Shown here: positions 2,203 to 55,958 of the stretch, piece by piece
Layout of the letters: every line of letters starts with the position of its first letter
How positions within the stretch are numbered: position 1 is the first letter of the stretch
From: Actinoplanes auranticolor
GTDB lineage: Bacteria; Actinomycetota; Actinomycetes; Mycobacteriales; Micromonosporaceae
Reading direction: 5' to 3'
Assembly (NCBI RefSeq): GCF_018332655.1
Contig: NZ_BOQL01000084.1
Coordinates: 1-64,000, forward strand
Length of the DNA stretch: 64,000 nt
Made by a program: the position numbers and the translations under genes
Notes under the pieces: model-generated
Databases searched by the model: none
The model's input: the letters and a program-made list of their open reading frames with translations, nothing else
Told to the model about the DNA's origin: nothing

Positions 2203-3794
2203 CGGGCGGTCACCGTGGCCAGCAGCTCGGGCATCCGCCTGTCCAGCATCGGGCCGGCCAGGCGGAGCCCGAGCAGCAGTGCGCCGCCGCCGTAGAGCAG
2301 GCCCAGCGGGAGACCGGCCCACAGCCAGACGTCGTGGGCCAGGAACGCGACGAGCTGCATCGGCACGGTGATCAGCGCCGCACCGAACAGCGCCGCGAAG
2401 GTCAGCAGCCCTTTGGCCATGCCCCCGCCCGAGGACAGGGCGAACGGGTTGGCCGTGTCGGGCAGCGCGTAGGCGACCCGGACCGAGATCGGCAGGACCA
2501 GGGCGAGGCCCACGCCGTACGCCGCGGCCAGCATGCCGACCAGGGCCGGGATCGTCTCCGGGCGGCCCACGGCGAGACCGACCACGATCGCGATCACCAG
2601 CAGCGACGGGACCACGTACACGGAGAAGCCGGCGACCCGCGAGGTCAGCTCCAGCCGGCCGGGGACGCCGGCCACGACGTTGGCCGCGTAGGCGCTGCCC
2701 TCGAAGCCGAACTGGTTGGCCAGGCTCACCGCGGCCAGCGCGCCGACGAAGACCAGCATGCCGGTCGGGGCGCCGACGGTGCCGCTGCTCACGCCGATGA
2801 AGACGGGCAGGAAGATCCCCACCACGCTGAACGTGATCAGGCTGGCCCGCCGCCGCGTCTCACGCCACCAGTACCGCATCTCCCGCGCGGTCAGCGCGCC
2901 GAACCGGGTGCGCGGCAGCCAGCCGGGCACGAGCTGGGCGACCGGCTTGCGCGCCGAGGCCGCCCGCTCCCGCGGGCCGGACCGGCCGACCGAGCCCAGC
3001 ATCGCGCGCTCGAGAGTCGCGGACCACCACCACAGCAACAGGCCGATCGTGGCCAGGACCAGAGCCAGCTTCACCGGTACGGCCCACAACCGTCCCGCGG
3101 CCACATCCTGGCCCATGCTGTACGGCGCCCCGAACGGCGTCCACGCGATGACGTCGGCCACCCGGGCGATGCCGGTCCAGTCGGCGTTCTCGGCTCCGGC
3201 CAGCGCGGCCAGTTGCAGCGGCCCGAGCAGCGCGGCGACACAGGCCAGCAGCACGGTCGCCAGATCGCGGGCCCGCCGAGACCGCAACGCCGTCGCGAAG
3301 GCGCTGGTCAGCGACCGGCTGACCGCCGCGCAGAGCAGGATGCCGGTGACCACGCCGACGAACTGGACCAGTGCGGCAGCCGGCCCGCCGAGTCGCGCCG
3401 CCGAGTCGACCATGCCCAGCGTCCCGGCGAACGTCGCCAGCGCGGGTACCCCGGCCAGCGATGCGACGAACAGGCCCCGGATCAGCGTGCGCCGGGGCAG
3501 TGGCAGCAGGGCGAAGCGGGCGGGGTCCAGCGATTCGTCCACGCCGAAGAAGACCAGCGGCAGGAACAGCCAGCCCAGCACGACCAGACCACCGGCCAGG
3601 GGCAGCGCCACCTCGGCGGCGCGCTGCTCATCGAGCAGGCCGGGCAGGCTGAACAGGGCGTACCCGCCGACCGCGGCGCAGGCGGCCAGCACCGCGCCGA
3701 GCACGAACAGAGCCACCCGCCAGGTCTGACCCCGCAGGCCGTTCGCGGTGATGCGCAGCTTGAGCTTGACGAAGTGCCGGACGCCTACAGCCAC
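2196..3794 (-). CDS. ABC transporter permease, multi-span membrane protein
   Basis: A 532-residue integral membrane protein with about twelve hydrophobic stretches and a hydrophilic middle, resembling the large permeases of ABC-2-type exporters paired with a single ATPase. The GTG at 3794 overlaps the stop of the ATP-binding gene by ten bases, so the two are translationally coupled and form one transporter at the cytoplasmic membrane. The substrate cannot be read from the sequence. The long continuation of the same open frame upstream through the ATPase gene is a high-GC artefact. The gene's end overlaps the end of trpS. Confidence 0.85.
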   Translation of the reverse strand: MAVGVRHFVKLKLRITANGLRGQTWRVALFVLGAVLAACAAVGGYALFSLPGLLDEQRAAEVALPLAGGLVVLGWLFLPLVFFGVDESLDPARFALLPLPRRTLIRGLFVASLAGVPALATFAGTLGMVDSAARLGGPAAALVQFVGVVTGILLCAAVSRSLTSAFATALRSRRARDLATVLLACVAALLGPLQLAALAGAENADWTGIARVADVIAWTPFGAPYSMGQDVAAGRLWAVPVKLALVLATIGLLLWWWSATLERAMLGSVGRSGPRERAASARKPVAQLVPGWLPRTRFGALTAREMRYWWRETRRRASLITFSVVGIFLPVFIGVSSGTVGAPTGMLVFVGALAAVSLANQFGFEGSAYAANVVAGVPGRLELTSRVAGFSVYVVPSLLVIAIVVGLAVGRPETIPALVGMLAAAYGVGLALVLPISVRVAYALPDTANPFALSSGGGMAKGLLTFAALFGAALITVPMQLVAFLAHDVWLWAGLPLGLLYGGGALLLGLRLAGPMLDRRMPELLATVTARQ

Positions 3795-4561
3795 GCGAGT
3801 TCCGACCCGGTCGCTGTGCGGCCGCCGACGACCTCGACGAAGACGTCCTCCAGCGAGCGCCCGCCGCGGACCTCGGCGAGCGTGCCGCGCATCCGGATAG
3901 TGCCGTCGGCCAGGATCGCGACGTGGCTGCACAGCCGCTCGACCACGGCCATGACGTGGCTGGAGAAGACGACCGTCCCGCCGCCGGAGACGTAGCGCTG
4001 CAGGATGTCGCGGATCAGCGCCGCCGACACCGGATCGACCGCCTCGAACGGCTCGTCGAGCACCAGCAGCCGGGGCGCGTGCAGCATCGCGCAGGCCAGG
4101 CCGATCTTCTTCTTCATGCCCGCGGAGTAGTCGACGACCAGGGTGCGGTTGTCGGCGCCCAGGGCCAGGACGTCCAGCAGCTCGGCGGAGCGCTGGTCGA
4201 CGACCTCGGCGTCCATGCCGCGCAACAGCCCGTGGTACGCCAGCAGTTCGGTGCCGGTGAGCCGGTCGAAGAGGCGGACACCGTCGGGCAGCACGCCGAT
4301 CCGGGCCTTCGCCGCGGCCGGGTCGGCCCAGACGTCGTACCCCAAAATCCGGGCCTGGCCCGCGTCGGGCCGCAGCAGGCCGACGGCCATCGACAGGGTG
4401 GTGGTCTTGCCGGCCCCGTTGGGGCCGAGCAGGCCGAAGAACGAGCCGGCCGGGACGTCCAGGTCGATGCCGGCGACCGCCGGCTTGGCGTCGAAACTCT
4501 TGACGAGACCACGCAGCGCGAGCGCCGGATCCGGGCTCAGGCGCTGGTGGGGAACCGTCAT
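3785..4561 (-). CDS. ABC transporter ATP-binding protein
   Basis: A 258-residue nucleotide-binding subunit. Visible elements are Walker A GPNGAGKTT, a Q-loop region (LGYDVWAD), the signature YSAGMKKKIGLA, Walker B LLVLDEPFEAVD and the H-loop SSHVMAVVE. The signature and domain order fit the CcmA/DRR-like ATPases that energise ABC-2 exporters. It is first in a two-gene operon with the permease at 2196-3794. The ATG at 4561 is the only reasonable start upstream of the beta-strands leading to Walker A. Confidence 0.93.
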   Translation of the reverse strand: MTVPHQRLSPDPALALRGLVKSFDAKPAVAGIDLDVPAGSFFGLLGPNGAGKTTTLSMAVGLLRPDAGQARILGYDVWADPAAAKARIGVLPDGVRLFDRLTGTELLAYHGLLRGMDAEVVDQRSAELLDVLALGADNRTLVVDYSAGMKKKIGLACAMLHAPRLLVLDEPFEAVDPVSAALIRDILQRYVSGGGTVVFSSHVMAVVERLCSHVAILADGTIRMRGTLAEVRGGRSLEDVFVEVVGGRTATGSELAWL

Positions 4562-52125: not shown

Positions 52126-52932
52126 CTACTTGATGCAGCAGCCCACGCAGACCTTGGGCTTCGGCAGGGTGAAGGCCAGGCAACACGTCTTGCGCTGCAC
52201 GTCCAGATTGCCACCGCGGCCCGGGACCAGCTCGATCAGGTCTTCGACCCCGAGCGTCCCCAGCAGCGTCGCGATCGTCTCCGCCGACGAGCCCGGCAGC
52301 ACGTCCGCCGAGCGCAGCACCGCATAAGCCACCCCGGACGACAGCGACCCGAGCAGCGTGCGCTGGCCCAGCCGGACCTTGGTGTGGATCGCGTCGAGCA
52401 GCGGCGTCAGGTGCTCGTCCAGCAGCGATCGCCGCAGCTCTTCCAGCAGCGCCGTCTCGTCGGCGACGACCCGGACGTGGGCCAGGCCGCTGAGTGCCAG
52501 CGGGTCGGACGGGAGCACCGCCACCGTGATGTCGCGGTGCAGGCCGAGGGTGACCAGCGGGCGCGGGTCGTTGAAGTGCATCAGCACGTCGGTGCCGGTC
52601 AGCAGCGGCACCCGGCGCGCGGAGGCCCAGCCCAGCACGGCCGGCAGAGCCAGCCAGTAGGTGTAGGCCTTCCAGGCCAGCGCGGCGGCGGCATGCGGCT
52701 GGGCCTGCCAGCGCTCGCGGGAGGAGTCGAGCAGAGTGTCGAGGCTGGCGCCGGCCAGGTCGGAGGTGGGCTGCCAGCCGGTCGGGTCCTGGACCGTCAG
52801 GTCCGGCGCCAGGCCGGGCAGCTCGGTGCTCGTGCCGAACATGGCGCGCAGGGTTGCGGTCACCGGCGCGAGGGGCTGCGCGGGGGAGGCGGAGTGATCG
52901 GAGACGACACGATCCAACGCGGTGGTCACCAC
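52126..52932 (-). CDS. FhuF-like [2Fe-2S] ferric-siderophore reductase
   Basis: A 268-residue protein that ends in CCLAFTLPKPKVCVGCC. This is the C-C-x10-C-x2-C cluster motif of FhuF, which releases iron from ferric siderophores. The body has the FhuF-type helical region (ALAWKAYTYWLALPAVLGW). GTG 52932 or the next GTG codon at 52929 is the start; neither has a good ribosome site. An IdeR/DmdR-type iron box lies about 95 bases upstream, fitting induction under iron shortage. Confidence 0.85.
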   Translation of the reverse strand: MVTTALDRVVSDHSASPAQPLAPVTATLRAMFGTSTELPGLAPDLTVQDPTGWQPTSDLAGASLDTLLDSSRERWQAQPHAAAALAWKAYTYWLALPAVLGWASARRVPLLTGTDVLMHFNDPRPLVTLGLHRDITVAVLPSDPLALSGLAHVRVVADETALLEELRRSLLDEHLTPLLDAIHTKVRLGQRTLLGSLSSGVAYAVLRSADVLPGSSAETIATLLGTLGVEDLIELVPGRGGNLDVQRKTCCLAFTLPKPKVCVGCCIK

Positions 52933-53025: not shown

Positions 53026-53044
53026 CTTGTTAAGGCTAACCTAA
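53026..53044. promoter_or_regulatory. Iron box (IdeR/DmdR/DtxR-type operator)
   Basis: The 19-base sequence at these positions matches the actinobacterial iron box TTAGGTTAGGCTAACCTAA at 15 of 19 positions by eye, including a perfect GGCTAACCTAA right half. It lies about 95 bases before the FhuF-like gene and 200 bases before the XRE-deformylase gene. Another half-site-like GACCTAACC is at about 53117. Confidence 0.75.
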
Positions 53045-53240
53045 CCACGCCAGCAAAACCCCCACATACCCGGCCCCGGACAGGTGTTCTTCGGGTAAAT
53101 ACCCCCAGCAAGGGTGACCTAACCGAGCGTTGTGCCGTTGCCGGTTTCGTCAAGGTATCTGTCGGCAACGCGCTACTAGCCCCATGCGGACACCGGAAGA
53201 CATGGACACTGAAATTCCTGTCGCAAAGGGGACATCCGTG

Positions 53241-54800
53241 ATGACCACCTCGCCTGTCGAGAGGGCTGCCGACCACTTCGTGTCGGCGCTCGCGCAATGG
53301 CGGGTCGAGCGCGGGATGACGAAGAAGCAGCTCGCCGCGCGCATGGGGTTCGATCCGTCGTACGTCAGCCACGTCGAGGGCCGGCGGCACAAGCCGACCG
53401 AGGACTTCGCCCGGCGGGCCGAGGCGGTGCTGGCCGCCGGCGGTGCCATCTGGCAGAGATTCCAGGAGTACGACGAACTGCGGCACGCCCGCGGTCCCGT
53501 CCTGCACCGCGACCCTCCCGTGCCCGCGCAGTGGATGCCGCCGGGCACCGGGCTGATCGTCGAGCAGGAGGTCGCCGAGCTCACGTACACCGACGGGGCC
53601 TACCGGTGTGTGATCCGGCGCGCGCTCTACAACGCCGGGGTCGAGCCGGTCACCCGTTATCTGGTGAAGATCGCCGTCGACCGGTACCCGCACGACCCGC
53701 AGGGCTCCAACCGGCACCACCGGCAGCACCCGCTCAGCTTCGAGGAGATGGACCTGCGTGCGGTGGCCGGCGAGGGTGCCGCCACCGAGCCGATGCAGTG
53801 GCGGCTCAAGCTGGACCGGGACGCGGCCAAGGAGGTCTGGCTGCTCTTCGCCAACGACCACGGCCAGTTCCCGCTCTACCCCGGCGAGCGCACCACCATC
53901 GAGTACGCGTACACGGTCGGCGAGGAGAAGTGGGGGCAGTGGTTCCAGCGGGCCGTGCGCCTGCCCACCCGCAACCTCACCGTACGGCTGGACTTCCCGG
54001 TCGAGTTCGAGCCCCAGGTGTGGGGTGTCGAGACCTCGCTGGCCGCCGAGGTGCCCGTGCGTACCCCGCTGGAGCGCCACAACGACGCACGCCGCGCGGT
54101 CTTCGAATGGTCGACCGACGCTCCGCTGCTCAACGCCCGGTACCGCCTCGAGTGGCGGTTCCGGGGCCAGGCCGCACCGACCACCCCGGACGAAGGAGTC
54201 CCGAAGCCCCGGACCAACGGGAGCCAGTACGAGCAGCCCCACGAGCTGAGAGCGAGCCAGCGGATGCGTGGAATCGGCATCGTGCAGCGCGGCGCGGACC
54301 TGCTGCGGCAACGCGCCCGGCACTTCCAGCTGCCCCGGGAGGAGCTCGCCGCCCGCGACGCGGTCGCCGGTCTGCGGGCCACGCTCGACCGGCTGGAGGG
54401 ACTGCACGACTTCAGCAAGGGGGTGGGACTGGCCGCGCCGCAGATCGGCCTGGCGGTTGCCGCCGCCGTGGTACGCCCACCCGAGCGCGGCGCGGAGTCC
54501 GTGGTCCTGCTGAACCCGCGGGTCGTCGACGAGTCGAGCGAGACCGACGAGCAGTACGAGGGCTGTCTGTCCTTCTTCGACTACCGCGGCCTGGTGGTCC
54601 GGCCGTTGCGCGTCGACGTGGAGCACGCCCGCTTCGACGGCACCCGGGTGATCACCTCCTTCGAGCAGGCCATGGCCCGCCTGGTCAGCCACGAGATCGA
54701 CCACCTCGAGGGCCGGCTGTACGTGGACCGGATGGTCCCGGGAGCCAACCTCGTGCCGGTCGAGGAGTACCGCCAGACCGGCCAGCCGTGGAACTACTAG
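53241..54800 (+). CDS. XRE regulator fused to peptide deformylase
   Basis: A 519-residue two-part protein. Residues about 13-75 form an XRE helix-turn-helix (RGMTKKQLAARMGFDPSYVS), a middle domain (about 100-330) rich in beta strands looks like a sensory or oligomerisation module, and the end is a complete peptide deformylase: GVGLAAPQIG near 394, EGCLS near 440 with the metal Cys, and HEIDHLEG near 483 with two metal His and the catalytic Glu. It would remove formyl from nascent proteins, possibly coupled to gene control. ATG 53241 is preceded by AAAGGGGAC. Confidence 0.9.
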   Translation: MTTSPVERAADHFVSALAQWRVERGMTKKQLAARMGFDPSYVSHVEGRRHKPTEDFARRAEAVLAAGGAIWQRFQEYDELRHARGPVLHRDPPVPAQWMPPGTGLIVEQEVAELTYTDGAYRCVIRRALYNAGVEPVTRYLVKIAVDRYPHDPQGSNRHHRQHPLSFEEMDLRAVAGEGAATEPMQWRLKLDRDAAKEVWLLFANDHGQFPLYPGERTTIEYAYTVGEEKWGQWFQRAVRLPTRNLTVRLDFPVEFEPQVWGVETSLAAEVPVRTPLERHNDARRAVFEWSTDAPLLNARYRLEWRFRGQAAPTTPDEGVPKPRTNGSQYEQPHELRASQRMRGIGIVQRGADLLRQRARHFQLPREELAARDAVAGLRATLDRLEGLHDFSKGVGLAAPQIGLAVAAAVVRPPERGAESVVLLNPRVVDESSETDEQYEGCLSFFDYRGLVVRPLRVDVEHARFDGTRVITSFEQAMARLVSHEIDHLEGRLYVDRMVPGANLVPVEEYRQTGQPWNY

Positions 54801-55906
54801 TCGGAGAAGCTGTCGTACTTGATCCGTACGGACGGGACCTGCAGCTCGGCCAGGGTCCGCAGGGTCGCCTTGACCATCTTGCCGGAGCCCGAGACGAAGA
54901 AGTCGTGCTCGTTCCAGGGGCCGTAGCGCGCCACCACGTCGGAGATGTTGCCCTGCTCGCCGGGGAACGTCGGGTCCTCGCTGCACGCGGTCACCACGGA
55001 CAGCCAGGGGTAGCGGGCGGCGAGCCGGTTGAGCTCGGCCAGGTCGTAGAGGTCCTCGCGGGTGCGGGCGCCGAAGAAGACGTGCACCCAGCGGGTCCGG
55101 TTGTAGCGGGTCAGTTCCTCCAGCAGTGACTTGACCGGGGCCAGGCCGGTGCCGCCGGCGACGAAGACCGCGTCCCGGGTGGAGCGCCGGTCCAGGTTCA
55201 TCGAGCCCATCGGCGCGGCCAGCCGGATCATGTCGCCGACCTCCAGCCGGCGCACCAGCGCGCTGGAGACCCAGCCCGCCCCGACCGCCCGGACGTGGAA
55301 CTCCAGGGTGTTGTCGCGCCGGGGCGCGTTCGCCGGCGAGTAGGTCCGCCACAGCCGGGGCTGGAAGCGCGGGCACTCCAGGCTCAGGTACTGCCCGGCG
55401 CGGTACTCCAGGGGCTGCAGCGGCATGACGGTGAAGACCGCGATGTCGGTCGCGCGCCGTTCGTGCGCGGTGACCTCGGCATACCAGTACGGCGGGTTGG
55501 TGTCGGCCTCCGCGCCGGCCAGCATCTTGGCGGCGATCACCGCGTACGCGTCGGCCCACGCCTGGTCGTACTCGACGCCCCACTGCTCGCCCGCGAACTG
55601 CCGCATCGCCTCGATCAATGCCCCTCCGACGACCTCGTAGTGGGCTGGTTCCACGTGGAACTTGCGGTGATCACGACCGAGGGCCCGCAGATAGTCGTCG
55701 AACTTCTCCGGGTCCTCCAGGGTCTGCACGGCGGTGACGATCGCGTTGAGCAACCGCGCCCGCTGGACGTCCATGTGGACGGGGAACAGATCCCGCAGGT
55801 CCGGGTGTGACAGGAAGATCCGCGCGTAGAAGTAGCCGGCGACCTTGTCCTGATGCTCCTCGACGAGGCTCCAGCTCTCCTTGAGCAAACGCGCGAGGTC
55901 TCCCAT
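54797..55906 (-). CDS. Flavohaemoglobin-like globin-reductase fusion
   Basis: A 369-residue protein. The N-terminal globin (about 1-130) contains YFYARIFLSHPDLRDLFPVHMD and the proximal-His region HRKFHVEPAHYEVVG. The C-terminal FAD/NAD module has RLWRTYSPANAPRRDNTLEFHV, AGGTGLAPVKSLLEELTR and the closing HDFFVSGSGKMVK. It should oxidise nitric oxide or act as an oxygen/NO sensor-oxidase. Its promoter region carries a palindrome at 55938. The end overlaps the deformylase fusion gene by four bases. Confidence 0.9.
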   Translation of the reverse strand: MGDLARLLKESWSLVEEHQDKVAGYFYARIFLSHPDLRDLFPVHMDVQRARLLNAIVTAVQTLEDPEKFDDYLRALGRDHRKFHVEPAHYEVVGGALIEAMRQFAGEQWGVEYDQAWADAYAVIAAKMLAGAEADTNPPYWYAEVTAHERRATDIAVFTVMPLQPLEYRAGQYLSLECPRFQPRLWRTYSPANAPRRDNTLEFHVRAVGAGWVSSALVRRLEVGDMIRLAAPMGSMNLDRRSTRDAVFVAGGTGLAPVKSLLEELTRYNRTRWVHVFFGARTREDLYDLAELNRLAARYPWLSVVTACSEDPTFPGEQGNISDVVARYGPWNEHDFFVSGSGKMVKATLRTLAELQVPSVRIKYDSFSD

Positions 55907-55937
55907 GCCATTAGCCTGGGCACAACAGTGGGTGATG

Positions 55938-55958
55938 CATCGCACCCGAAGTGCGATG
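55938..55958. promoter_or_regulatory. Palindrome upstream of the flavohaemoglobin-like gene
   Basis: CATCGCAC at 55938-55945 and GTGCGATG at 55951-55958 form a perfect 8-bp inverted repeat around CCGAA. It lies about 32 bases before the ATG of the flavohaemoglobin-like gene, near the expected -35. It may be an operator for an NO- or oxygen-responsive regulator; no family consensus was matched. Confidence 0.45.

Follow-up and report, generated by a model that had tools for sequence, protein, structure and literature searches.

In the soil bacterium Actinoplanes auranticolor, a complete gene at 53241..54800 on the forward strand of the analysed window, i.e., the first 64,000 nucleotides of contig NZ_BOQL01000084.1, encodes a single chain of 519 amino acids composed of a helix-turn-helix (HTH), a middle domain, a linker and a peptide deformylase (PDF). 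The frame runs uninterrupted from the ATG at 53241 to the stop codon TAG at 54798-54800 (519 codons plus stop) and is preceded by a Shine-Dalgarno-like sequence, AAAGGGGA (53225..53232, forward strand), which was read from the sequence and is kept among close relatives in the alignment. A frameshift or an assembly join of two genes was ruled out by the single frame observed here and by one open frame in 61/61 sampled genomes of the genus, and nothing of the kind separates the regulator half from the PDF half. The coordinates and the content that a sequence-only reading had given for the gene were correct. In four of the 61 genus genomes, an insert or divergent stretch lies between two matched segments of the open frame. 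In public annotation, the family is hidden under plain "peptide deformylase," which is usually the product name given to the plasmid copies.

In the window, the genes immediately around the fusion encode FhuF-like, flavohaemoglobin and CAAX-protease-like proteins. The fusion gene is divergent to the one for an FhuF-like ferric-siderophore reductase (52126..52932, reverse strand; PF06276 with E 8.9e-04 and TIGR03951 with 7.2e-05, both below cut-off) and convergent with that for a flavohaemoglobin-type protein (54797..55945, reverse strand; Globin, FAD_binding_6 and NAD_binding_1, together with synteny), an arrangement found throughout the Micromonosporaceae. A palindromic CTAG at 54797-54800 is common to the two convergent genes, whose stop codons overlap there. 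A functional link to flavohaemoglobin or FhuF across all relatives is unsupported, because the synteny is confined to the Micromonosporaceae, and membership in a defence system was rejected, since the HTH alone matched, to generic control proteins.

The upstream region contains a candidate promoter or operator, GTCAAG-N5-TGTCGGCAACG (53149..53170, forward strand), at -92 relative to the start. Of 77 upstream regions from Micromonosporaceae, 74 contain an exact GTCAAG-N4-6-TGTC at -81 to -92. GTCAAG-N5-TGTC may serve as a promoter, as an operator or in both roles. The same motif was sought before the split, Actinomadura and Frankia-like copies and was not found there. Elsewhere in its own genome, the extended motif has one exact match and two with one mismatch; a genome-wide regulon was not supported, since the exact match and one other lie inside coding sequences of LuxR-type response regulators and the third is apparently coding. 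On the FhuF side, CTTGTTAAGGCTAACCTAA at 53026-53044 resembles a DtxR/IdeR-like iron box (4 mismatches to the consensus used), and most of the Micromonosporaceae relatives have a similar sequence in their divergent region.

Domains of the fusion protein

The N-terminal HTH (residues 15-71; 53283..53453, forward strand) is of the XRE type, as had been read from the sequence: HTH_31 (E 3.5e-10 at 15-71) and HTH_3 (1.8e-06) both match above their curated cut-offs, and the helices are present in the structure model. Most of the relatives that were scanned also match HTH_31 above the cut-off, among them Frankia-like proteins whose N-terminus has diverged. For residues ~72-346 of the fusion protein, the Pfam search gave no match over the cut-off.

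The PDF domain (residues 347-500; 54279..54740, forward strand) matches PF01327 (Pep_deformylase) with E 1e-31 and 110.1 bits against a cut-off of 22.8; the NCBIfam PDF models match it below their cut-offs. In a structure alignment of the predicted model, this part superimposes on solved PDFs with Z 20-21 over 140-164 residues. All three deformylase motifs that had been reported as intact (GxGLAAPQ, EGCLS and HExxH) were found, namely, motif I as GVGLAAPQ (residues 394-401; 54420..54443), motif II as EGCLS with the metal-ligand cysteine (residues 440-444; 54558..54572) and motif III as HEIDH with metal ligands and the catalytic Glu (residues 484-488; 54690..54704), each on the forward strand. 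Both GxGxxAxQ and HExDH occur in every one of 110 distinct fused PDF domains, and EGC[LM]S in 109. The fusion shares with class I peptide deformylase (PF01327) the full domain, the three motifs and the fold (Z ~21), but its PDF is part of a longer protein, in which it is preceded by an HTH and a beta module. Four further deformylase genes are located in the same 9.88-Mb genome, so that the fusion is not the sole source of deformylase activity.

Mean pairwise identity among 39 relatives is 0.79 for the HTH and 0.70 for both the middle domain and the PDF, in contrast to 0.18 for the linker, and the corresponding dN/dS values in close pairs are 0-0.14, 0-0.19, 0.02-0.18 and 0.16-2.0. Purifying selection acts on each of the HTH, the middle domain and the PDF; the linker (residues 313-337; 54177..54251, forward strand), which has low pLDDT at 315-334, is nearly neutral. 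A degenerate PDF is ruled out by the motif conservation and dN/dS, and fold, motifs and purifying selection suggest that the fused deformylase is apparently competent. The earlier proposal that one chain combines an XRE domain with a deformylase capable of activity is supported to this extent, i.e., by the fold, the motifs and the selection acting on each part.

The middle domain (residues ~105-307; 53553..54161, forward strand) had been described as beta-rich, which agrees with the all-beta AlphaFold2 models, and the sole addition here is its fold assignment. The full-length model, based on a 39-sequence alignment, reached pLDDT 83 but pTM 0.54, so that the domains are confident and their mutual packing is not. 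Modelled alone (model mce1515e86c59, pTM 0.80), the middle domain gave Foldseek matches with E down to 2.1e-07 and VIA-align matches with Z 11.3-13.6 and rmsd 3.2-4.5 Å over 155-177 of 212 residues. The matches comprise ribophorin I/Ost1 and the DUF3857-type putative protease 3kd4 (Z up to 13.6), the DUF4424 protein 4g2a (Z 12.5), and the N-terminal domains of ERAP1, IRAP, LTA4 hydrolase and aminopeptidase N (Z 11.3-12.4). According to these models, the middle domain is of the M1 aminopeptidase N-domain/DUF3857/DUF4424/ribophorin I fold. It shares this fold with the M1 N-domain, 3kd4 and 4g2a over nearly its whole length, but at 6-14% identity and beside a PDF and an HTH instead of an aminopeptidase or a transglutaminase. 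Weak sequence matches to DUF3857 (PF12969) occurred in 4 of 23 middle domains (best E 0.0014), the window member having none. Immunoglobulin-like and designed beta proteins returned by a PDB sequence search with the middle-domain profile were taken as fold-level noise, and a viral structure library gave only weak matches, to giant-virus aminopeptidase and inter-alpha-inhibitor-like proteins. The DUF4424 fold has been likened to the LTA4H N-domain by Coggill et al., who proposed a role in enzyme assemblies (PMC3848476). By analogy with the occurrence of this fold beside the peptide-handling active sites of metalloenzymes elsewhere, the domain may be placed in the same way here. One middle-domain protein (L160; G034, 2744-3808) has an N-terminus unlike the XRE HTH and without a Pfam match, which suggests that the middle domain is reused with other partners.

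Distribution, split forms and genomic context

The phyletic distribution of the fusion had been proposed as a check of the sequence-only reading. Besides the 61/61 genus genomes, relatives were found in 123 of 151 family genomes (E<=1e-40, counting cases with one half only), and in a class-wide sample the middle domain is present in 24 of 395 genomes, mostly fused to PDF. These class-wide fused members include Actinomadura-like and Frankia-like families (family names inferred), and further relatives of the fusion are located on plasmids of Streptomyces, Nocardia and Nonomuraea. The nearest named relative is Amorphoplanes nipponensis (94% identity), and a series of species from Actinoplanes and Micromonospora ranks below it.

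The two halves are also found as separate genes. Six Actinoplanes genomes contain a second, diverged copy as two convergent genes, one for HTH-middle and one for PDF; in two other family members the halves are convergent and 3 kb apart, and in one further member they are in tandem. The HTH-middle and PDF genes form an operon with a 4-bp overlap (ATGA, GTGA) at L234 and on a plasmid of Streptomyces cellulosae. In a tree that took in two of the genome's four housekeeping paralogues and has several long branches, split and fused PDFs group together, apart from these two paralogues, and the trees of the regulator half and the PDF half agree in outline. The split PDF partners L233 (2259-2993) and L234 (2499-3239) have an altered motif I, in which GxG is changed to QMG or AMG with replacement of the first glycine; their EGCLS and HEVDH are intact. 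PDF-only members of the fusion-type clade also exist (L241).

At the standard Micromonosporaceae locus, HTH-middle without PDF is found between the same neighbours at at least eight loci, several of them with the upstream motif. Retention of HTH-middle at the syntenic locus argues that the regulator half has a job of its own, and its persistence without PDF argues that the PDF is dispensable for the regulatory role in some cases. Loss of the PDF domain at the syntenic position, with HTH-middle remaining, was recorded for L227-L232, L239 and L245.

A divergent gene layout is typical of local regulators. In nearly all annotated plasmid contexts, many of which stem from related plasmids and therefore do not count as independent events, the fusion is divergent to its upstream neighbour, often a biosynthetic operon. 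The opposite-strand neighbours on plasmids include an NRPS adenylation protein with an amino-acid racemase, radical SAM/SPASM with creatininase, dTDP-glucose dehydratase with ATP-grasp and DegT, D-Ala-D-Ala ligase, SAM methyltransferase, glycosyltransferases and a MazF-type pair. On three Streptomyces plasmids (L252, L253 and L259), a QueD-QueE-FolE operon is divergent to the fusion and is accompanied by NRPS or radical-SAM/DegT/thymidylate-kinase genes; these loci are possible deazaguanine-type natural product clusters. Among the Actinomadura loci, for which a simple gene caller was used, two copies lie opposite a DegT aminotransferase gene and two opposite one for a PCMT-type methyltransferase. 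The Frankia-like copies have no close divergent neighbour and are set apart from the upstream gene.

Proposed regulatory role and rival explanations

Proteins that combine an HTH with an enzyme-derived domain are of a known kind, e.g., BzdR, where an XRE HTH is joined to a shikimate-kinase-derived domain that lost its enzyme activity during evolution into a regulator (PMC3602430). BzdR-type regulators and the fusion alike begin with an HTH and end in a domain derived from an enzyme, but the fusion carries a PDF instead of a shikimate-kinase-like domain, has conserved catalytic motifs and contains a separate beta middle domain. The retention of the PDF catalytic motifs, unlike the fate of the enzyme domain of BzdR, argues that turnover matters. 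A second point of comparison is LydA, a cluster-situated PDF conferring lydiamycin immunity (PMC12130866). LydA is, like the fusion, an extra actinomycete PDF, and the plasmid copies of the fusion are likewise near biosynthetic genes; LydA, however, is cluster-situated, with no HTH mentioned in the passages on it, whereas the fusion is core to its genus. The immediate neighbours of the window gene do not form a biosynthetic cluster for a PDF inhibitor of the kind in which LydA is placed. For the combination of an HTH with a PDF and an M1-N-domain-like middle domain, no description was found in our literature searches, whose coverage was incomplete.

The reading that we prefer, albeit tentatively and as one that falls somewhat short of probable, is a local, probably autoregulated XRE regulator that carries a competent PDF and in which the state of the active site feeds back on DNA binding. 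The HTH would bind its own promoter and that of the divergent neighbour, i.e., the FhuF-like gene in Micromonosporaceae and often a small biosynthetic operon on plasmids. The beta module would dock to the PDF site and transmit its state. DNA binding would then depend on the metal state of this site or on whether an N-formyl peptide or PDF inhibitor occupies it, the enzyme continuing to turn over meanwhile. Three options had been raised earlier, namely, a resistance deformylase, a sensor of formyl-peptides and an autoregulated enzyme. A regulator with enzyme-coupled sensing or autoregulation is favoured as the best fit, because the gene is divergent on nearly all plasmids, the regulator half survives loss of the PDF and a conserved motif lies at its own promoter; the resistance deformylase is the weakest of the three. 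The further-reaching idea that the switch, by way of the catalytic site of the active deformylase within its own chain, directly detects N-formylated peptides, PDF inhibitors or the enzyme's ferrous state, and thereby links protein maturation or iron state to neighbouring, often biosynthetic, genes, is possible but doubtful.

The gene could instead represent an extra PDF with built-in autoregulation, whose HTH does no more than keep its own gene repressed as long as no further deformylase is required, the neighbours being untargeted. The occurrence of GTCAAG-N5-TGTC only at its own promoter, among the non-coding genome sites found, would be in line with this explanation, as would the intact catalytic motifs and the four other PDFs of the genome; it is nevertheless rather unlikely, given the repeated divergence from biosynthetic operons and the persistence of HTH-middle without PDF at the same locus, which would be pointless if its task were to regulate the PDF. 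Resistance would mean a PDF that is insensitive to natural inhibitors of the actinonin or lydiamycin type and is induced via the HTH when the inhibitor is present. The self-resistance to lydiamycin that cluster-situated LydA provides (PMC12130866), the strong divergence of fusion-type PDFs from two housekeeping ones in the genome and the location of plasmid copies near biosynthetic genes are compatible with such a role. It appears improbable, however, because the gene is core, with fixed synteny in 61/61 genus genomes, and its contexts vary, the adjoining operons being of many unrelated kinds.

The PDF domain might also be nothing but the ligand- or metal-sensing part of a transcription factor, with deformylation being physiologically irrelevant, for which BzdR with its XRE HTH and enzyme-derived effector domain provides a precedent (PMC3602430). 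The Micromonosporaceae neighbours, i.e., the FhuF-like gene with its DtxR-type box and the flavohaemoglobin gene, hint at iron or redox in this context. Such a pure sensor is likewise improbable, since all catalytic motifs, beyond the metal ligands, are kept over wide taxa, whereas BzdR lost its enzyme activity, and since the split PDFs are free-standing enzymes by sequence. Finally, the HTH could serve as a protein-interaction or localisation module of a protein that acts in an enzyme complex rather than in transcription, in agreement with the proposed contribution of the middle-domain fold to large enzyme assemblies (PMC3848476) and with the N-terminus of L160, which lacks a recognised HTH. 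Since the window protein and most relatives scanned match HTH_31 above its cut-off, and since the HTH is the most conserved part of the fusion, this role is very improbable.

Meaning for deformylases and actinomycetes

Peptide deformylase is an antibacterial target that is treated as pure housekeeping. The fusion is an old combination, conserved across many actinomycetes and apparently undescribed, and a conserved actinomycete family with an apparently intact deformylase and a DNA-binding regulator in one chain would give the deformylase a regulatory role. With such a family, one could test directly whether a transcription factor senses formyl-peptides or Fe(II), and on actinomycete plasmids the fusion would mark small biosynthetic operons. 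In these proteins, the deformylase may be the sensor or the output of a gene switch.
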